Below, one piece after another: positions 1 to 57,454 of a stretch of 64,000 nucleotides of DNA. This DNA is from Streptomyces sp. NBC_01353 (GTDB lineage Bacteria > Actinomycetota > Actinomycetes > Streptomycetales > Streptomycetaceae): the NCBI RefSeq assembly GCF_036237275.1, contig NZ_CP108352.1:6138001-6202000 (forward strand), read 5' to 3'. The position numbers and the translations under genes are program-made. The first letter of the stretch is position 1. Every line of letters begins with the position of its first letter. Below the pieces are notes generated by a model. The model had not been told where the DNA came from. It saw nothing but the letters and a program-made list of their open reading frames with translations, and did no database searches.

Positions 1-2882
1 AGGCGCAGGACACGACCAGTGGTCCCGCCGGGCCCGCGGGGCGGGGCGGATCCGGGGCCGCGGTGGCCCCGGCGGCCCATCCGGGCGGTCCGGCCCCGGC
101 GCCGCAGTCCCCGGCCACGGGGCGCGCGGCCGAGCCCCTGACCCCGGGCGGTTCCCAGGACGCCGCAGGCCCTGCGGCGGGGACTCTGCCTCCGGGTGGT
201 TCCCAGGACGCCGCAGGCCGCGCGGCGGGGAGGCTGGACGAGGGCGGCCCCCGCCGCGGCGCGGAGCCCCTCGCGGGTCACGCGTACCGCGCGGTCTCAC
301 CACCCCGCCCCGGCAATCTCCGTGCGCGGCTCACCAGTTTCGTCGGGCGCGGGCAGGACATCGCGCAGCTCCGGGACGACCTGTACGGCAGTCGGCTCGT
401 CACCCTTCTCGGGCCCGGCGGGGCCGGGAAGACGCGGCTCTCTCAGGAGGGGGCCGAGCATGCCGCCGACGGCGGGGCGTGGCCGGACGGGGTCTGGCTC
501 GCCGAACTCGCGCCCGTGACCGACCCCGAGGCCGTCACCGAGGCCGTGCTCGGCGCCGTCGGGGCGCGCGAGACCGTGCTGCGCGGCGCGGGCGCCGAAG
601 AGCTGCGCGGCACCGACACCCCGCTCGGGCGCCTCGTCGAACACTGCGCCTCGCGCCGGCTCCTGCTGATCCTGGACAACTGCGAACACGTGGTGGACGC
701 GGCCGCGGCCCTCGCGGAGTCGCTCCTCGCCCGGTGCCCGGGCGTGACGGTTCTCGCCACGAGCCGCGAACCGCTCGGCGTCCCGGGGGAGTTCCTGCGT
801 CCCGTGGAGCCGCTGCCGCCCGAGAGCGCGCTGCGTCTGCTCGGGGAGCGCGGGGCCGCGGCCCGGCCCGGTTTCGACCCCGACGACGACCCCGAGGCGT
901 GTGACGAGATCTGCCGACGCCTCGACGGCCTCCCGCTCGCGATCGAGCTGGCTGCGGCGCGGCTGCGGCTGCTGACCCCACGTCAGATCGCCGACCGCCT
1001 CGACGACCGCTTCCATCTCCTCACCTCGGGAGCCCGTACCGTCCTGCCCCGGCAGCAGACCCTCCGCGCGGTGGTCGACTGGTCCTGGGATCTGCTCGAC
1101 GCGCCCGAACGGGCCGTCCTGCGCCGGCTGTCCGCGTTCACGGGCGGCTGCGACCTGGAGGCGGCGGAGGCGGTCTGCACGGAACCCGTCCGTCCGACCG
1201 CGGAGGCCCACGAGACCGCCCCGCGCGCGGACACCCTCGACGTGCTCGGGTCGCTCGTCGACAAGTCGCTGGTCGTCGCCACGCCCGCCGACGACGGGAC
1301 GATGCGCTACCGCCTCCTGGAGACCGTCGCCGAGTACGCCGGCGAGCGCCTCGACGAGGCGGGGGAGCGGGCGGAGATCGAGCGGCGCCATCTCGTCCAC
1401 TACCGCGAACTCGCCCGCCTCACCGACCCCGAACTCCGCGGCGGCGGCCAGCTCCGCGCCATGACCTGGTTCCGCACCGAGTACGAGAACCTGCGCACCG
1501 CCCTGCGCCACGCCGTCGCCGAACGCGACGAGCACGAGGCGCTCATGCTCGTCCACTGCCTGCTCTGGTACTGGCAGCTGCGCGATCTGCGCGCCGACGC
1601 CCTGCACTGGGCCGAGGCCGCCGCCGCCCTCGGGCCCGACCCCTTCGCGCCGCCGGCCGCCCCCGTCGTACCGCTCCACAAACCCTGCACCGCCGCGGCG
1701 CCTCCGCTGAGCGAGGAGCAGCTGTGGGAGGCCCGGCGCGGGGTTCGGCTGATCGAGCTGCTCAACATGGACTACCAGACGGGCCGGTGGACCACCCCCG
1801 AGGGTGGGGAGCGGCTGCGCCGCATCGTCGCCGTCTACCGGCCGGGGCTGCCGCAGATGTGCCGGCTTCCCGGCTCCTTCGCCATCTTCGCCGTCCTCCT
1901 CGTCGGGGCGGCGGACGAGATGCGGGACGTCCTCGACGCCACCGTCGAGTCGTGCCGTGCCTTCGGGTACGACTGGGAGCTCGCCAACGCCCTCCAGACG
2001 CGCGCCAACCTGCTGGCCAACCGGGCCGACTGGGCCGGTGACGCGGCGGCCGACGCCGAGGAGAGCCTGGAGATCTTCGTCCGCCTCGACGATGCGTGGG
2101 GCGCTGCCGAGGCACTCTCCTCGCGCGGTGAGGCCCGCGAGCGACGGCTCCGGTTCGAGGGCGCGGCCGAGGACTTCGCCGCCGCCATCGGCTACGCGGA
2201 ACGGATCGGCGCCCAGTCCCAGATGGGCCTGCTGCGCGCCCGCTACGCGGACATGCTCGCCGTGACCGGTCGCGCCGAGGAGGCCGAGGCGATCCTGCGC
2301 CGGGTCCTGGCGGACGAGGAGAACCGCGGGCACGAACCGATGCTCGCGGCGCGGCTGTTCCTGGCGGTGCTGCTCGGCCGCACCGGTCGCACGGCCGAGG
2401 CGCGCGAGCAGTTGAAGGCGCTCCTCGCGGACTTCAGCTCCGAGACCCTGTCGATCTTCGGCGGGTTCACCCTCGGCAGCCTGGGCTGGCTGGACAACCT
2501 CGACGGGCAGTACGCCTCGGCGCTCGACCTCGCCCGGGAGGCTCTGGACCGGTCCCTTGGCACGCTGTCGATGATGGTCGCCCCGCAGATGGCGGCGGTC
2601 CATCTGGTCACCGCCGCCTGGGCGCTCGCCGGCCTCGGCGGTCCCCGAGCGGTGATCGGCGCCCGGCTCCTCGGCGCCCACCCGGGCCTGCTCCCGGAGG
2701 GCCATCTGCTCTCGCCGCCCGAGCGGGAGAACCTGGAGCGGGCCACGGAACTCGCCCGCTCCGTGCTCGGCGACGAGGCCTTCGAGGCCGCGTACGCCGA
2801 AGGCGGCGGCCTCTCCCTCGAGGAGGCCACCGCCCTGCTCGCACGCGGCGCCGACGCGATCAACGGGCGCGCCGAGCCCTGA
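1..2882 (+). CDS. SARP/AfsR-type regulator, NB-ARC ATPase and TPR part (5' end outside window)
   Basis: The reading frame is open from the window edge through a Gly/Pro/Ala linker, so the first visible start (GTG at 63) is probably internal and the gene begins upstream. Numbered from that GTG, a P-loop GPGGAGKT lies at residues 117-124, a Walker B-like LLLILDNCEH near 200, the ATSREPLG sensor near 235 and a GLPLAIELAAARL motif near 290. A helical, TPR-like half follows up to residue 939. This architecture is the C-terminal ATPase/TPR portion of AfsR-like SARPs, whose winged-helix and BTAD domains would sit in the missing 5' part; a LuxR-type LAL or another STAND protein cannot be excluded. 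The gene converges with the ABC exporter, only 12 bp apart. A downstream-facing regulatory link to that exporter is inference. Confidence 0.85.
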   Translation, partial: AQDTTSGPAGPAGRGGSGAAVAPAAHPGGPAPAPQSPATGRAAEPLTPGGSQDAAGPAAGTLPPGGSQDAAGRAAGRLDEGGPRRGAEPLAGHAYRAVSPPRPGNLRARLTSFVGRGQDIAQLRDDLYGSRLVTLLGPGGAGKTRLSQEGAEHAADGGAWPDGVWLAELAPVTDPEAVTEAVLGAVGARETVLRGAGAEELRGTDTPLGRLVEHCASRRLLLILDNCEHVVDAAAALAESLLARCPGVTVLATSREPLGVPGEFLRPVEPLPPESALRLLGERGAAARPGFDPDDDPEACDEICRRLDGLPLAIELAAARLRLLTPRQIADRLDDRFHLLTSGARTVLPRQQTLRAVVDWSWDLLDAPERAVLRRLSAFTGGCDLEAAEAVCTEPVRPTAEAHETAPRADTLDVLGSLVDKSLVVATPADDGTMRYRLLETVAEYAGERLDEAGERAEIERRHLVHYRELARLTDPELRGGGQLRAMTWFRTEYENLRTALRHAVAERDEHEALMLVHCLLWYWQLRDLRADALHWAEAAAALGPDPFAPPAAPVVPLHKPCTAAAPPLSEEQLWEARRGVRLIELLNMDYQTGRWTTPEGGERLRRIVAVYRPGLPQMCRLPGSFAIFAVLLVGAADEMRDVLDATVESCRAFGYDWELANALQTRANLLANRADWAGDAAADAEESLEIFVRLDDAWGAAEALSSRGEARERRLRFEGAAEDFAAAIGYAERIGAQSQMGLLRARYADMLAVTGRAEEAEAILRRVLADEENRGHEPMLAARLFLAVLLGRTGRTAEAREQLKALLADFSSETLSIFGGFTLGSLGWLDNLDGQYASALDLAREALDRSLGTLSMMVAPQMAAVHLVTAAWALAGLGGPRAVIGARLLGAHPGLLPEGHLLSPPERENLERATELARSVLGDEAFEAAYAEGGGLSLEEATALLARGADAINGRAEP
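144..230 (+). repeat. Two-copy 48-bp in-frame repeat in the regulator linker
   Basis: Two near-identical stretches, starting at 144 and 192, encode the repeated peptide PGGSQDAAG followed by PAAG or RAAG. The period is 48 bp (16 codons), so the reading frame is kept. It lies in the flexible linker just before the ATPase domain and probably arose by local duplication. Confidence 0.8.
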
Positions 2883-2894
2883 AATCCGTAGGAC

Positions 2895-3758
2895 TCAGGT
2901 CTTCTTGCGGAACTTGGCGACCGCGAGCGGCGCCGTCACGGCCGTGATCACCACGGCCCAGCCGAGCGTCATCCACACGGAGTCGCCGACGGGGGTGCCG
3001 TTGATCATGGCGCGGGCGGCGTCGGCGAGGTTCGACAGCGGGTTGTAGTCGGTGAAGGTCTCCAGCCAGCCGGGCATCGAGGTCGGCGGGGCGAAGATCG
3101 AGGAGCCGAACTGCAGCGGCATCAGAACGATCATGGCCATTCCCTGGACGGCCTGGGCCGTCTTCATCGCGAGACCGAGCAGGATGAAGATCCACATCAG
3201 CGAGGCGCCGAAGACCATGGACAGACCGATGGCGGCGAAGAGGTCCAGGATCGAGCCCTTGATCTCCAGGCCCAGCAGGAAGCCCATGCCGAGCAGGATC
3301 GCGGTGGCGATCAGCATCCGGCCGATCTCGACGACGATCTTCGCGATGAGGACGGAGGACCGGGCGATCGGCATCGTCCGGAACCGGTCCATGACCCCCT
3401 TCTTGAAGTCGTCGTTGATGCCCGTGCCGACGGCCATCGCGATGTTCATGCCCATCATCGCCATCAGGCCGGGGACCACGTAGTTCACGTACGCGTCGTT
3501 GTTGCCCTTGCCGGAGATCGCGCCGCCGAAGACGTACACGAAGAGCAGGACGAAGATGATCGGCATCAGGACGACGTCGAACATCGACTCCGGGTCCTGC
3601 TTGATCTGCAGCGCGTTCCGCCGCGCCAGGGCGCCGATGTGGCGGAGGTTGGCGCGCAGGCCGATCCGGCCCTCGCCGCCGGGGTGCGCGCGCACCGGCG
3701 ACGGCCCGGGCGCGTCGACGGGAGCCTTGGTGAGCTCTGTGGTCGTCGTGGTGCTCAC
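2895..3758 (-). CDS. ABC-2 type exporter permease, DrrB-like
   Basis: The 287-residue protein has a short polar N-terminus and about six hydrophobic segments, the layout of DrrB/ABC-2 permeases that pair with a separate ATPase to export drugs or lipids across the cytoplasmic membrane. The motif FKKGVMDRFRTMPIARSS after the second membrane segment is the typical coupling loop of this family. The start is GTG at 3758, which overlaps the stop of the upstream ATPase gene by 4 bp (GTGA), so the two are translationally coupled. The substrate cannot be read from the sequence. It is convergent with the AfsR-like gene. Confidence 0.9.
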   Translation of the reverse strand: MSTTTTTELTKAPVDAPGPSPVRAHPGGEGRIGLRANLRHIGALARRNALQIKQDPESMFDVVLMPIIFVLLFVYVFGGAISGKGNNDAYVNYVVPGLMAMMGMNIAMAVGTGINDDFKKGVMDRFRTMPIARSSVLIAKIVVEIGRMLIATAILLGMGFLLGLEIKGSILDLFAAIGLSMVFGASLMWIFILLGLAMKTAQAVQGMAMIVLMPLQFGSSIFAPPTSMPGWLETFTDYNPLSNLADAARAMINGTPVGDSVWMTLGWAVVITAVTAPLAVAKFRKKT

Positions 3759-4747
3759 GCGGCGACCTCCTCGAGGGTCGTGTCGGAAACGGTGGTCTTC
3801 TCGCCCGTGATGGCGAGGAAGACCTCGTCCAGGCTGGGCAGGTGCGTGCCGATGTGGGCGATGCCGTAGCCGCGCGCTCCCAGCAGGCCGACGACGGCGG
3901 TCAGCTGCTCGTCGCTCAGGATCGGGACGTACAGCACGCCCTCGTCGGGGACGACGGTCGAGCCGGCGATGCCGTCCAGGCCCGACTCGCGCAGCGCGCC
4001 GGACATCGCGGGCAGGTCGGCCGGGTCCACCGGGCGGATCGTGAGCGTGCGGCCGCCGACGCGGGCCTTGAGCTCGTCGACCTTGCCGTTGGCGATGACC
4101 TTGCCCCGGTCGATGACGGTCAACTCGCTCGCGAGCTGCTCCGCCTCCTCCATGTACTGCGTGGTCAGCAGCACGGTCACGCCCTCGGCGACCATGCGCT
4201 TGACCTCGTCCCAGACCTCGTTGCGGGTGCGCGGGTCGAGGCCGGTGGTGGGCTCGTCCAGGTAGAGGACGGCGGGCTGCCCGATCATCGAGGCGGCGAG
4301 GTCGAGCCGCCGGCGCATGCCGCCGGAGTACTGCATCGCGGGCCGCTTGGCGGCCTCGGTGAGTGAGAACCGCTCCAGGAGGTCGTCGGCGCGGAGCCGG
4401 GCGTCCTTGCGGGAGAGGTCGAGCAGCCGCCCGATCATGTAGAGGTTCTCCCAGCCGGAGAGCTTCTCGTCGACCGAGGCGTACTGGCCGGTGAGGCCGA
4501 TCGTGCGGCGGAGCTGGCGGGGCTGCTTCACCACGTCGTAGCCGGCGACGGTGGCGGTCCCGGAGTCCGGGACGATGAGGGTGGACAGGCAGCGGACGAG
4601 GGTGGTCTTGCCCGCCCCGTTCGGGCCGAGCACGCCGAGAACCGTGCCCTCCCGGACGTCGAGGTCGACCCCGTCGAGGGCCTTCGTCTCGCCGTAGTGC
4701 TTCACGAGGCCTCGTACCTCGACGGCGTTGTGTGCGGATCGCGTCAT
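3755..4747 (-). CDS. ABC exporter ATP-binding protein, DrrA-like
   Basis: This is the ATPase partner of the adjacent permease. Visible motifs are Walker A GPNGAGKTT, signature YSGGMRRRLD, Walker B VLYLDEPTTGLD and the switch-region TTQYMEEAEQL. The extra C-terminal domain of about 90 residues is typical of daunorubicin-type (DrrA) ATPases. The start at ATG 4747 gives MTRSAHNAVEVRGLVKHYG, about 330 residues and normal for the family; the longer frame reaching 4879 is Cys/Arg-rich and lies in the repeat-bearing promoter region. A three-codon reading frame (ATG AGG GCA TGA, start 4755) overlaps this start. Substrate unknown. Confidence 0.92.
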   Translation of the reverse strand: MTRSAHNAVEVRGLVKHYGETKALDGVDLDVREGTVLGVLGPNGAGKTTLVRCLSTLIVPDSGTATVAGYDVVKQPRQLRRTIGLTGQYASVDEKLSGWENLYMIGRLLDLSRKDARLRADDLLERFSLTEAAKRPAMQYSGGMRRRLDLAASMIGQPAVLYLDEPTTGLDPRTRNEVWDEVKRMVAEGVTVLLTTQYMEEAEQLASELTVIDRGKVIANGKVDELKARVGGRTLTIRPVDPADLPAMSGALRESGLDGIAGSTVVPDEGVLYVPILSDEQLTAVVGLLGARGYGIAHIGTHLPSLDEVFLAITGEKTTVSDTTLEEVAA

Positions 4748-4769
4748 GCCCTCATGAGAACAGCAGCCA

Positions 4770-4824
4770 CCGACAACGCACCGACAGAAGGCCGACAGGG
4801 GACCGACAGCCCGCCGACGACAAG
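4770..4824 (-). repeat. Five phased 11-bp direct repeats upstream of the ABC exporter
   Basis: On the + strand CCGACA/CCGACG begins at exactly 4770, 4781, 4792, 4803 and 4814. That is five heptamer-like units CCGACAR or variants with 4-bp spacers (CTGTCGG on the exporter's coding strand). Degenerate further copies lie at 4833 (CTGACAG), 4849 (CCGACAG) and 4862. The array ends 22 bp before the ATPase start. An 11-bp period puts the units on one face of the helix, the geometry of SARP operators. Function is inference. Confidence 0.6.
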
Positions 4825-4946
4825 ACGGCTCACTGACAGAACGGGCGGCCGACAGAAGGGCCGACCGACCGAACGGCACGACGCGGGTCGCGCGCGTACT
4901 TCACGCGCGGCCCGCGCCCAGGGGTGCCGATGGACCGGATCAGGAC

Positions 4947-5810
4947 CTAGTGGAAGGTGTGCTCCTCGGCGGGGAACGCCCCGCCGGTGACGTCCTCCGC
5001 GAAGGCGCGCGCGGCGTCGCCGAGCGTCTCGCGGAGGTTGGCGTACTGCTTGGTGAACCGCGGGACCTTGCCGCCGGTCAGACCGGCCATGTCGGTCCAC
5101 ACGAGGACCTGGGCGTCGGTGTCAGGGCCGGCGCCGATGCCGATGGTCGGGATGTGCAGCGAGCGGGTGACCTCGGCGGCCAGCTCGGCCGGTACGAGCT
5201 CCAGGACGACGGCGAAGGCGCCCGCGTCCTGGGCCGCCTTGGCGTCGCTGAGCAGCCGGTGCGCGGCCTCGTCGCCCCGGCCCTGCACCCGGTACCCCAT
5301 GGTGTTGACGGACTGCGGGGTCAGGCCCAGGTGGGACATGACCGGGATCCCGGCCTGGACGAGCAGCTCGGTCTGCGGCAGCGAGCGCTCGCCGCCTTCC
5401 AGCTTGACGGCGCCGACGCCCGCGTCCTTGACGAGCCGGGTGGCGTTGCGCAGGGCCTGGACGGGCCCTTCCTGGTACGAACCGAAGGGGAGGTCGCCGA
5501 CGACGAGGGCGCGCTTGGTGCCCCGGACGACGGCGGCCGACAGGAGGGTCATCTCGTCCATCGTGACGGGCACGGTGGTGTCGTAACCGAGGTGACAGTT
5601 GCCCATGGAGTCGCCGACGAGCACGACCGGGATTCCGGCCTCGTCGAACACGGACGCGGTCATCGCGTCGTAGGCGGTGAGCATGGGCCACTTCTCGCCG
5701 CGAGCCTTGGCCGCGGTGATGTCGTGGACGGAGATACGGCGCGTGCCCTTGCCTCCGTACAGCGCCTTGCTGCTGTCGGGGGACTGCTTCGGGGCAGGCT
5801 GAAGCGTCAT
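4947..5810 (-). CDS. panB: 3-methyl-2-oxobutanoate hydroxymethyltransferase
   Basis: PanB transfers a hydroxymethyl group from methylenetetrahydrofolate to alpha-ketoisovalerate, the first committed step of pantothenate and CoA synthesis in the cytoplasm. The 287-residue product has the family's metal and substrate motifs: LTAYDAMTA, VVLVGDSMG, GDLPFGSYQ, AVKLEGG and MSHLGLTPQ. Start ATG 5810 is chosen because AAGGAG lies 9 bases upstream; two in-frame upstream starts (5831, 5978) lack this or lengthen the protein with non-conserved sequence. It stands alone between the exporter promoter and a divergent membrane protein gene. Confidence 0.97.
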   Translation of the reverse strand: MTLQPAPKQSPDSSKALYGGKGTRRISVHDITAAKARGEKWPMLTAYDAMTASVFDEAGIPVVLVGDSMGNCHLGYDTTVPVTMDEMTLLSAAVVRGTKRALVVGDLPFGSYQEGPVQALRNATRLVKDAGVGAVKLEGGERSLPQTELLVQAGIPVMSHLGLTPQSVNTMGYRVQGRGDEAAHRLLSDAKAAQDAGAFAVVLELVPAELAAEVTRSLHIPTIGIGAGPDTDAQVLVWTDMAGLTGGKVPRFTKQYANLRETLGDAARAFAEDVTGGAFPAEEHTFH

Positions 5811-6135
5811 GGTGAACGGCTCCTTCGTCATCTCGAGGCGCCCTGACGGCGTCCCCGGATCACGTCCATGGTGGCACCTCGCGCCACGGCGCGGAAAGGG
5901 GGCCGGAGTGGTGCTGTTCACACCACCGCAACGGAAGAAAGTCGCCGAGTGCGGGCACGCCGGGATGCGTTGGGACACGTCGTTGCGAATGTGCGCGTTC
6001 TGTCACAGCCACCCGTCCCCGCGCCACCTGCAGGAACCCGCCGCGCCGCTGTGTCGTCCCCCGTGGCAGTACGGCAGGCCCGGCATCACCTAGTGTCGAC
6101 GTCGGGTCACAGAGCAAGGCAGTGAGGACTGAGTG
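5811..6135. other. Divergent intergenic region panB / EEP-fold gene
   Basis: No convincing gene is seen here. The region holds the panB ribosome-binding site, an inverted repeat GTGGTG-N7-CACCAC at 5908-5926 that could be an operator or small hairpin, and a TAGTGT sequence near 6092 that would fit a Streptomyces -10 element for the rightward gene. Short open frames in it have no recognisable features. Confidence 0.5.
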
Positions 6136-7158
6136 ATGGCGCGGGTGGACATGGCGGAGACCGAGAACGGCGGCCCGGGGGACGAGCGCTCCCGGCCCCG
6201 GTTCCGGGCGGCGCTCGACCGCTGGCGCGGTGACCGGGGCATCTGGCGCCGCGGGATCCTCCTCGCCGTCTGTGCGGTGCTGCTCACCCTGCTGATGGTC
6301 TTCCACGCCGAGATCCCCAACCGGATCGGCAACCTGGGCAGCCTCACCGAGACCTTCCTGCCCTGGCTGGGCGTGCTCGTGCCGGTCCTGCTCGTCCTGG
6401 CGCTGCTGCGGCGCTCGGCCACCGCGTTGATCGCCCTGCTCCTGCCGACCGTGGTCTGGGTCAACCTCTTCGGGGGGCTCATCACCGACAAGTCCGGTGC
6501 GGGCGGCGATCTCACCGTCGCGACCCACAACGTGAACGCCGACAACCCCGACCCGGAGGGGACCGCCCGGCAGATCGCCGCGTCCGGCGCGGACGTGGTG
6601 GCCCTGGAGGAGCTCAAGGGCGAGATGGTCCCGGTGTACGAGAGCGCCCTGGCGAGCACGTACAAGTACCACTCCGTGCAGGGCACGGTCGGGCTGTGGA
6701 GCAGGTACCCGCTGAGCGATCCGCAGCCGGTGGACATCGGCATGGGCTGGACCCGCGCCATGCGCGCCACCGTCGCCACGCCGAAGGGCGATGCGCGGGT
6801 GTACGTGGCGCACCTCCCGTCCGTACGGGTCAAGATGAACGCGGGCTTCACCGCCAACCAGCGCGACAACAGCGCGAACCTGCTGGGCGAGGCCATCGCC
6901 TCCGACCGGCTCGAGCGGATCATCCTGCTCGGCGACCTCAACGGCACCATGAACGACCGCGCGCTCAACGCCGTCACCGCGCAGATGCGCTCCACCCAGG
7001 GCGCGTCGGGCGACGGCTTCGGCTTCAGCTGGCCGGCCTCGTTCCCGATGGCGCGGATCGACCAGATCCTCGTGAAGGGCGTGGAGCCGGTCTCCTCGTG
7101 GACGCTGCCGGAGACCATGAGCGACCACCTGCCGATCGCGGCGCGCCTACGGCTCTGA
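6136..7158 (+). CDS. Membrane-anchored endonuclease/exonuclease/phosphatase-fold protein
   Basis: The N-terminus is a charged cytoplasmic stretch of about 40 residues followed by three hydrophobic segments. The rest, from about residue 120, is an EEP (DNase I-like) domain. Recognisable motifs are VATHNVNADN, VVALEEL, ILLGDLNGTMND and the terminal MSDHLPIAARL, which supply the metal-binding Asn, Glu, Asp and His residues. The hydrolytic domain is probably outside the membrane. The substrate (phosphodiester, lipid or nucleic acid) is unknown. ATG 6136 is preceded directly by an in-frame GTG at 6133, so the start is uncertain by one codon. GAGGA lies about 9 bases upstream. Confidence 0.9.
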   Translation: MARVDMAETENGGPGDERSRPRFRAALDRWRGDRGIWRRGILLAVCAVLLTLLMVFHAEIPNRIGNLGSLTETFLPWLGVLVPVLLVLALLRRSATALIALLLPTVVWVNLFGGLITDKSGAGGDLTVATHNVNADNPDPEGTARQIAASGADVVALEELKGEMVPVYESALASTYKYHSVQGTVGLWSRYPLSDPQPVDIGMGWTRAMRATVATPKGDARVYVAHLPSVRVKMNAGFTANQRDNSANLLGEAIASDRLERIILLGDLNGTMNDRALNAVTAQMRSTQGASGDGFGFSWPASFPMARIDQILVKGVEPVSSWTLPETMSDHLPIAARLRL

Positions 7159-7190
7159 CGCCCGCCCCCCACGCCAGGCCCCACGCTCCG

Positions 7191-7259
7191 CCCCGGCACC
7201 TCGCCGCCCGGCTCCCACACCAGGCCCCGGCGCCTCGCCGCCCCGGCTCCCACGCCCCG
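7191..7259. repeat. Two-copy 34/35-bp GC-rich tandem repeat
   Basis: A 34-bp unit at 7191-7224 and a 35-bp unit at 7225-7259 share the core CGCCTCGCCGCC or CACCTCGCCGCC followed by CGGCTCCCAC. Partial copies continue to about 7290. It lies directly downstream of the EEP-fold gene and before the MFS promoter, and no coding function is seen. Confidence 0.6.
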
Positions 7260-7382
7260 CCCCGGCGCCGGGCGCCGCCCCGGCACCACGCCCCACAGCG
7301 CCGCCCGGCCTTGAACCGAGCGCAGGTCGAAACCCCCTCTTCACCTGGGGGAGGCCGGCGGGAACATTTCACCTGAGAGTAT

Positions 7383-18006: not shown

Positions 18007-18513
18007 ATGAAGATCACCTCGTTCGTCACCGGGCGTCTGCTGCTGCATCCGCTCACCGTTGCCGAGGCCGAGCGGATCGTCGCGCAGGCGCCCGCCGCGG
18101 AGGACCGTTGGGCGCCGGGGTATCCGGCCGACGGGGACCTGGCCGGGGCACGCGGATTCCTCGGCGTGTGTGACGCGCAGGGGGATCCGGGCGTGTTCGG
18201 GGCGTACGAGATACGGCGGCGGACGGACGGGGCCGCCGTCGGCGGGATCGGGTTCCACGGGCCGCCGGACGACGAGCGGTTCGTGACCGTCGGGTACGGG
18301 CTGATCCCGGACGTACGGGGGCTCGGGTACGCCACCGAGGCGCTGCAGGCCCTGCTCGAACTGGCCAGGGAACAGGGTGTCGCCGGCGCGAAGGGCGACG
18401 CCGATCTCGCGAATGTCGCCTCGCAGCGCGTGATGGAGGCCGCCGGGATGCGGTACGCGGGGGAGGACGAGCGGGTGCGGTACTACCGGATGGACTTCAC
18501 GCCGGTGGTCTGA
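18007..18513 (+). CDS. GNAT-family N-acetyltransferase
   Basis: The 168-residue protein has the GNAT order: an N-terminal strand-helix with TGRLLLHPLTVAEAERIV, then AVGGIGFHGP, then motif A at VGYGLIPDVRGLGYATEAL (acetyl-CoA pyrophosphate loop), and NVASQRVMEAAGMRY near the end. It resembles the RimJ/RimL-like branch that acetylates amino groups of proteins or small molecules. The stop codon TGA falls inside the first unit of a tandem repeat that continues downstream. Confidence 0.92.
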   Translation: MKITSFVTGRLLLHPLTVAEAERIVAQAPAAEDRWAPGYPADGDLAGARGFLGVCDAQGDPGVFGAYEIRRRTDGAAVGGIGFHGPPDDERFVTVGYGLIPDVRGLGYATEALQALLELAREQGVAGAKGDADLANVASQRVMEAAGMRYAGEDERVRYYRMDFTPVV

Positions 18514-18571
18514 GTCTGGACCGGTGGTCTGAATACGGACCGGTGGTCTGACATACGGACCGGTGGTCTGA
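18502..18571. repeat. Four-copy 19-20-bp tandem repeat crossing a stop codon
   Basis: The 12-mer CCGGTGGTCTGA occurs at 18502, 18521, 18540 and 18560, each followed by a short spacer (GTCTGGA, ATACGGA, CATACGGA and similar). The first copy encodes the last residues and stop codon of the acetyltransferase; the others are intergenic. A different repeat follows immediately. Confidence 0.85.
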
Positions 18572-18590
18572 GTACGGACCTGGGGCCCGA

Positions 18591-46967: not shown

Positions 46968-47300
46968 ATGCCGCAGATCACCGTGGACTACTCCGCGCCG
47001 CTCGACCGGCGCGGCTTCGCGCTCGCGCTGCACCCGCTCGTCGTGGAGACCGTCGACACACGGATCGACGCCTGCAAGACCCGCTTCCGCGAGGTCGAGG
47101 AGACGGTCATCGGGGACGGCTCGACGAACGACGTCGTCGTCCATGTCGACATCGCGCTGCTGGCCGGCCGTACGGACGAGACGAAGGCCCGCCTCGCGGA
47201 GGCCGTGGTCGCGCTGCTGCCCGCGTACCTCAAGGAGCCGGAGGGCGTCCATGTCTCCGCCGAGGTGCGCGACCTCGAACCCTCCTACCGCAAGGCCTGA
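46968..47300 (+). CDS. 5-carboxymethyl-2-hydroxymuconate delta-isomerase-like tautomerase
   Basis: A 110-residue protein of the tautomerase superfamily. MPQITVDYSAPLDRRGF places the catalytic Pro right after the initiator Met, and the later VHVDIALLAGRTDETK matches HpcD/CHMI proteins. Those enzymes ketonise an intermediate in homoprotocatechuate breakdown, but no other genes of that pathway are nearby, so the physiological substrate is uncertain. GGGAG lies 8 bases before ATG 46968. Its stop borders a 13-bp tandem repeat. Confidence 0.85.
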   Translation: MPQITVDYSAPLDRRGFALALHPLVVETVDTRIDACKTRFREVEETVIGDGSTNDVVVHVDIALLAGRTDETKARLAEAVVALLPAYLKEPEGVHVSAEVRDLEPSYRKA

Positions 47301-47301
47301 C

Positions 47302-47404
47302 GACGGCGGTCGACCGCGGCGGTCGACGACGGCCATCGGCCACGGAGGTCGACCACGCCGGTCGACCACGGCCATCGGCCACCGCGGTCGACTACGCCAG
47401 TCGC
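47302..47404. repeat. 13-bp tandem repeat with 39-bp higher-order period
   Basis: Seven exact-length 13-bp units run from 47302 to 47392, with a degenerate eighth to 47404. Most end GGTCGAC; the third and sixth instead end CATCGGC. The order is A-A-B, A-A-B, A-A', so a 39-bp superunit is repeated twice and begins a third time. The array starts one base after the isomerase stop and its last units cover the stop and last codons of the convergent TetR gene. Confidence 0.9.
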
Positions 47405-57318: not shown

Positions 57319-57370
57319 GGGACTTCATACGGACGCCAGGGCCCGCGCGTTCAACGGAGCCGACACGGAC

Positions 57371-57454
57371 ATCAGTCCGAGCGCGTCAGCCCGAGCGCAT
57401 CAGTCCGATCGGGTCACTCCGATCGCGTCACTCCCATCGCGTCAGTCCGAGAGG
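57371..57454. repeat. Six-unit 14-bp tandem repeat overlapping a stop codon
   Basis: Six consecutive units of exactly 14 bp run from 57371 to 57454 with consensus RTCAGTCCGAKCGC. The last unit includes the stop codon of the epimerase gene (57442-57444), whose end therefore lies inside the array. The array occupies much of the promoter region of the DUF1996 gene. Confidence 0.92.

Follow-up and report, generated by a model that had tools for sequence, protein, structure and literature searches.

Directly upstream of a predicted DrrAB-type exporter in the window (the whole 64-kb stretch of DNA that was analysed) a short sequence is repeated at regular intervals, and the question raised by this locus is whether these repeats form an operator, and if so for which regulator, or whether they are a tandem array of no regulatory consequence. 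The features on which the analysis relies are the following, in coordinates of the window:

1..2882 (+): 3' part of the gene for a predicted large SARP, converging on the exporter; the whole gene was followed outside the window
2895..3758 (-): drrB-type ABC-2 permease, 287 aa (PF01061, 105.8 bits)
3755..4747 (-): drrA-type exporter ATPase, 330 aa (TIGR01188 drrA, 384.9 bits, cut-off 312.45; PF00005, DrrA1-3_C)
4745..4747 (-): ATG start codon of DrrA, 6 nt past the -10
4754..4759 (-): -10 hexamer TCTCAT, 10 nt past the last unit, with an extended -10 TG at 4762-4761 (from the orthologue alignment)
4775-4770, 4786-4781, 4797-4792, 4808-4803 (TGTCGG) and 4819-4814 (CGTCGG) (-): putative operator of five 11-bp-phased units (from the sequence and conservation in orthologues)
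4838-4833 (TGTCAG), 4854-4849 (TGTCGG) and 4861-4869 (overlapping GTCGG) (-): out-of-phase unit relics (from the sequence)
4947..5810 (-): panB (TIGR00222, 304.4 bits)

Results and discussion

The repeat array and the exporter operon

The units CCGACA (starting at 4770, 4781, 4792 and 4803) and CCGACG (at 4814) follow each other with an exact 11-bp period, positions and period being precisely those of the original prediction, which had placed five units from 4770 onward upstream of an ABC exporter. On the exporter's strand (minus) they read as four copies of TGTCGG and one of CGTCGG. The interval 4748-4946 contains one 5-mer five times and one 6-mer four times, spaced exactly 11 bp, and since none of 2000 dinucleotide-preserving shuffles of this interval had four or more copies of any 5-mer at periods 7-30, chance does not produce the array. 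Throughout the 64-kb window at least four exact copies of a 5-mer (periods 7 to 39) were found only here and once with a period of 27 bp; a repeat finder also listed tandem arrays at 18502-18580, 47299-47403, 57370-57451 and 7172-7294, with periods of 19, 39/13, 28/14 and 35 bp. A coding array was considered as well, as an ORF of 374 aa (3755-4879) reads through it, and was rejected because 11 bp is no whole number of codons and the number of units varies; the similarity to DrrA, which begins at the ATG at 4747 in many orthologues, also counts against it.

The DrrA model is above its cut-off, and the drrB product scores 90.2 bits against TIGR00025, under the cut-off of 146.9. Upstream of the exporter, panB is the neighbour at most orthologous loci, and the regulator gene converges on the exporter from the opposite side; panB is not part of the switch. 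In S. coelicolor panB is SCO2256 (PMC2853524), and the exporter and the regulator would be expected beside it. A gene of a VanJ-like phosphatase family (6133-7158, plus strand; NCBIfam vanJ 408.9 bits, cut-off 700) adjoins panB. By eye, TGTCGG also occurs in the right arm of a terminator-like inverted repeat of panB at many of the loci L009-L088, often in phase with the operator, so the terminator and the operator may share sequence.

The adjacent gene encodes a predicted large SARP

The complete regulator gene starts at genome position C1:6137142, 859 bases to the left of the window (L008:7142-10882), and encodes a protein of ~1246 aa, a length that assumes the GTG start at L008:7142, an ATG 30 bases earlier being also possible. 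It had been claimed that an AfsR-like regulator is encoded next door, and the lack of BTAD and winged-helix domains in the complete protein had been named as evidence against the SARP-operator reading; the completed gene carries both above cut-off, namely Trans_reg_C, an N-terminal OmpR-type winged helix (28.6 bits, cut-off 26.2, residues 25-77), and BTAD (137.5 bits, cut-off 22.1, residues 95-237). In the scan of the full-length protein NB-ARC (23.3 bits, cut-off 23.5) and TPR_12 (24.4 bits, cut-off 30.1) stay just under their cut-offs, and NB-ARC passes with 24.0 bits if the C-terminal part is scanned alone; regular expressions found Walker A at 56 and Walker B at 57 of the 80 loci described below. 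The closest solved relatives by sequence are AfsR (8hvr/8k60/8jke) and EmbR (2fez). Aligned with AfsR, the regulator has A65 opposite T88 and R69 opposite R92, and it is these two AfsR residues that reportedly make base contacts, according to the part of PMC10936776 used here. By these matches the neighbouring gene is a predicted large AfsR-type SARP with a winged helix and BTAD.

Conservation of the array in orthologous promoters

A scan with PanB yielded 80 loci, 72 of them with a DrrA match, which together with the window gave 73 promoters; 69 were anchored automatically on a TGTCRG last unit, hence the conservation of the last unit is partly by construction. As for the others, L076 and L088 fit by eye, the units of L029 are mostly TGTAGG, and L041 has only a fragment of DrrA. 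Among the 69 anchored promoters a TGTCRG unit stands 11 nt before the last unit in 60 and 22 nt before it in 53, while at any other distance before it TGTCRG is found in at most 11. Contiguous units (with up to one mismatch) number from 2 to 7 in 68 of the 69, and one promoter has a single unit. In the same set the information content per column is 1.5-2 bits in the second and third units and mostly below 0.9 in the spacers, one column of which reaches 1.4 bits. The comparison of orthologous promoters, suggested earlier as the check on an operator, thus finds the units and their phase conserved and most spacer columns variable. At L047, L050 and L079 the array is retained at drrA where panB is 1.6-2.4 kb off.

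The promoter itself is equally regular. All 69 anchored promoters have a T 21 nt past the first base of the last unit, and in all of them an ATG follows the last unit after 22 nt (15 promoters) or 23 nt (54), distances from 18 to 27 nt being allowed. A larger set comprises 130 placed promoters, of which 123 are distinct and 7 repeat another row (L173, L177 and L258 were unplaceable and left out); the script used for it imposes T at the last base of the -10 and ATG 6 or 7 nt on, and leaves the first two bases of the -10 free. A TANNNT hexamer is found in 0/69 and 0/130 promoters, respectively. Of the distinct promoters 45/123 have T in the first place and 78/123 have A in the second, each having the one or the other and none both, so that the -10 is always one step from TANNNT; CACTGT occurs in 5/130. 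A -10 that is never TANNNT and that ends 6-7 nt before the ATG implies an activator-dependent, leaderless promoter, and the start of drrAB is probably leaderless. The last unit begins at about -28, which matches the placement of the AfsR box within about a base.

Co-occurrence of the exporter and the regulator

At the 80 panB loci (E<=1e-20) the exporter and the regulator are found together, on opposite strands, in 66 cases, a match to the exporter only in 6, neither in 8, and the regulator only in none. Among the six, L071 is truncated where its stretch ends, L064 extends only 1.5 kb beyond drrA, with no drrB match there, and at L041 DrrA and the SARP domain are present only as fragments. The remaining three, L026, L043 and L078, are true exceptions, with no adjacent regulator and with a sole relative (E<=1e-45) of 60-65% elsewhere in each genome. 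Further operators without an adjacent regulator were found at L252, L255 and L260 and in the stretches L231-L233.

In a search of 38 genomes for the SARP domain (E<=1e-55), it was present in each of the 22 that have either the operator pattern (18) or DrrA (4) and in 2 of the 16 lacking DrrA, namely G054, a two-contig genome, and G145, with 1040 contigs. The regulator and the operator or DrrA lie within ~6 kb of each other, on opposite strands, in 17 of the 22 genomes, five of the 22 (G010, G013, G115, G121 and G244) being without operator coordinates. The exporter and the regulator are therefore mostly retained or lost together, with exceptions. Possible relics of the SARP domain were noticed at L034:6663-6430, where the exporter is lost, and at L041:2536-2381.

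Distribution in the genus and the family

To search whole genomes we used a composite pattern of two TGTCRG units in 11-bp phase, followed by T and ATG at a fixed distance. It is present in 204 of 247 Streptomyces genomes, and the reversed-pattern control in none of the 247; there are ~218 matches, or about one per genome, with more than one in twelve genomes (by eye). All 30 matches for which the surrounding DNA was fetched are just upstream of a DrrA homologue. DrrA (E<=1e-120) is encoded in 27 of the 43 Streptomyces genomes that lack the exact pattern, and in each of these 27 at least one unit is still in place, in 19 of them with TGTAGG (by eye); L134 has one clear unit only, plus TATCGG. 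Among 150 genomes of the family the pattern is found in 74, which span 12 of 17 genera (control 0). Outside Streptomyces 20 matching stretches were read, second sites being deliberately among them; 14 lie ahead of a DrrA-like gene and six (L254, L262-L265 and L268) do not, so the family count does not consist of exporter sites only. In genus g14, four phased TGTCGG units at L263:10780 (minus) and two such units at L264:6276 (plus), with TACCCT or TAGCCT, precede genes resembling those for the small and large subunits of exonuclease VII (by eye).

A search of the window's own genome for further targets returned TGTCRGN5TGTCRG seven times, three of them within the array, versus five for the control, i.e. 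not above the control elsewhere. The array is conserved and no neutral minisatellite, and it is very probably a real operator.

A coupled change of repeat base and recognition helix

Genus g14 has its array at the same site and in the same phase, with units that are mostly TGACAG; second copies in genus g3 have TGACGG. All 14 regulators beside changed arrays whose helix is covered (that of L198 is not) have Thr at the position that aligns to AfsR T88, whereas Ala is the residue there in the drrAB-linked regulators of the other group. Altogether T in the third base of the unit goes with Ala in 62 pairs and A goes with Thr in 13; the other rows are L167, with a TGTCAG/TGACAG tie and Thr, L269, with TGTCAG and Arg beside a distant DrrA, and L040, in which the residue is not covered. 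Removal of repeated promoters leaves 61 T/Ala, 13 A/Thr, 1 tie and 1 T/Arg. A tree was built from 59 SARP domains, for which the Ala-type rows from panB loci had been reduced to 22. In it the Thr rows form one clade with support 100/96, and since they share a single branch, the 75 concordant pairs amount to one event. Both modules, each with its own code, are found in G264 (L176/L200 and L186/L201). AfsR reportedly contacts the pair at -36 through T88 and the T at -38 through R92, according to the sections of PMC10936776 available to us. If the first T of the unit is taken as -38, a register that we chose, its third base falls at -36, or at -37 if counted from the -10, and the switched base would accordingly be at or next to the pair that AfsR T88 reportedly contacts.

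Which factor reads the array?

The unit nearest the promoter also looks like the RecA-NDp/PafBC box, a likeness absent from the original prediction. TTGTCRGTG, which we take to be that box, with a TANNNT -10 after 8 nt as its consensus, is the form of the last unit in 46/62 Streptomyces cases versus 1/62 for the penultimate unit, and it is also that of the window's own last unit. The exporter could thus be under dual control, with a SARP on the phased array and PafBC sharing its last unit in Streptomyces only, which would couple the exporter to DNA damage; such a scheme overlaps with the explanation that we prefer. The extra TTGTCRGTG conservation, confined to the last unit, would come atop the evidence for a SARP, but it may as well serve contacts of RNA polymerase or of the SARP, and TANNNT is missing in all 130 promoters, hence we regard dual control as rather unlikely.

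Control by the DNA-damage activator PafBC as such, with the exporter damage-inducible from a RecA-NDp promoter and the upstream units mere side effects, has still less to recommend it and seems to us improbable. RecA-NDp-like sites are common in the own genome (21 TTGTCRGTG-N8-TANNNT sites, control 0), but a TGTCGG unit (up to one mismatch) is found 11 bp upstream in 0/30 of such sites examined, which together with the lack of TANNNT at the exporter (TCTCAT in the window) makes pure PafBC control unlikely. Moreover, the box is lost from the last unit outside Streptomyces (0/7 Actinacidiphila-like loci), and in g14 the last unit is mostly TGACAG, yet TTGTCRGTG-N8-TANNNT sites persist in three genomes (13, 4 and 9; control 0). 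RecA-NDp promoters have been described in S. coelicolor (PMC5087735, consulted in part), and for S. venezuelae the portion of PMC9380542 used here mentions that an initial motif search suggested that the PafBC motif of M. smegmatis is not conserved.

The array might also be the operator of a different regulator, either a PhoP/OmpR-family factor or another SARP, such as a paralogue of 60-65% with the same recognition helix. OmpR-family factors, too, use 11-bp direct repeats, but the unit of PhoP is a different sequence. A paralogue in the own genome, encoded at C1:7861201 (L165:9204 onward), has the same ALQALVGRLRR helix and converges on a gene for a siderophore-interacting protein (PF04954, 119.7 bits), upstream of which we found TGTCGG-N5-TATCGG-N5-TGTCGG-N10-AAGGGT (L165:13563-13536, C1 ~7865540), and at the threshold given above such a relative is all that the genomes of L026, L043 and L078 contain. 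On the other hand, Thr-type regulators adjoin the changed operators, and the two modules of G264 each have their own code, which leaves a different regulator with little likelihood. The paralogue suggests that the regulator-operator pair was duplicated onto another target, as a further module that keeps the code. In a strict three-unit scan of 20 stretches at paralogous regulators of other Streptomyces, L209 gave a believable site, L226 a chance-like one and the other 18 nothing, and a TGTCGG-type scan of the paralogue stretches returned L209 only. At L228:8204 (minus; C1 ~5930200) four CCCGAAC repeats at 11 bp, followed by CAGAGT, separate another large SARP gene from a divergent short-chain dehydrogenase-like gene (by eye), and are perhaps that SARP's own putative operator with another code.

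Finally, a neutral minisatellite, the caveat of the original prediction, or a by-product of the panB terminator can be dismissed, for although the number of units varies, the terminator-like repeat holds TGTCGG at many loci and the window has further tandem repeats, conservation across the genus contradicts it: the unit, the phase and the distance to the -10 and ATG are fixed while most spacer columns vary, the array stays at drrA in L047, L050 and L079, away from panB, and the units change together in g14.

Proposed mechanism and significance

We consider it highly probable that the array is the predicted operator of the adjacent large AfsR-type SARP and drives the DrrAB-type exporter. This SARP-operator reading, already put forward on the grounds that SARPs bind repeats 11 or 22 bp apart just upstream of a -10, gains support from the conserved units and phase, the domains of the regulator, the position of the repeats, the near co-occurrence of exporter and regulator and the matching change in the recognition helix, all of which are observed, whereas binding by the regulator, activation, the leaderless start and the signal are inferred. 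Each 11-bp unit would be occupied by one SARP domain, adjacent domains lining up along the same face of the helix. With the promoter-proximal unit at about -28 and the next one covering the -35 region, the bound domains could hold RNA polymerase on the poor -10, from which it would initiate drrAB transcription without a leader. The putative NTPase-TPR part would presumably restrain the SARP domain until both ATP and the signal are present, and the signal is plausibly a compound exported by DrrAB. The array and its neighbouring genes point to a dedicated pair of regulator and pump.

A bolder version, possible but held only tentatively, extends this to the family as a one-receptor/one-exporter detoxification module, in which an AfsR-like STAND regulator would sense the exporter's substrate, assemble on a rheostat array of 2-7 units and fire a promoter exactly one substitution off TANNNT, the code having been switched once via Ala/Thr (AfsR T88) and one repeat base, with both codes kept in G264.

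SARPs are familiar chiefly as activators of antibiotic clusters, and to our knowledge little is known of the stimuli to which the NTPase-TPR class responds. If the proposal is true, a conserved regulator with apparently one main target would make a clean reporter for its signal in many Streptomyces, and the paired change in helix residue and repeat base would be a natural experiment on DNA recognition by SARPs, one that could let their targets be predicted from sequence. We found no description of the regulator-operator-exporter set in the open-access literature searched, which is weak evidence of novelty; the kind of system is known, while this pair, its reach and the natural code switch were not found described there.

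Comparison with known systems

With the RecA-NDp/PafBC promoters the exporter promoter shares the TTGTCRGTG box, equally spaced from the -10 in Streptomyces, but it lacks TANNNT and has extra phased units. Among SARP systems, PimR-pimM (a SARP-LAL) is similar in that the operator of PimR consists of three heptamers with 4-nt spacers, lies at its unique target gene and needs at least two monomers, according to the part of PMC5930380 used here; it differs in its CGGCAAG units, its target in a biosynthetic cluster and the LAL-type C-terminus. In S. peucetius the SARP DnrI is reported to bind the DrrAB exporter genes (as cited in PMC10972967, of which a part was available). DnrI, however, is one of the small SARPs and belongs to the daunorubicin cluster (PMC5930380, in the same part), whereas here a large SARP is found and the exporter lies beside panB. 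AfsR is likewise a large SARP, with NTPase and TPR parts that are candidates here, and has 11-bp direct repeats and a poor -10: the AfsR box of afsS in S. coelicolor, as given in the excerpt of PMC10936776, comprises two 11-bp repeats from -40 to -19, a poor CACTGT -10 and a poor -35. R92 of AfsR is conserved, as R69 here, whereas the position of T88 is occupied by Ala in the Streptomyces regulators read, and unlike at afsS, the units have another sequence and number up to 7, the target is a conserved exporter and the start is probably leaderless.
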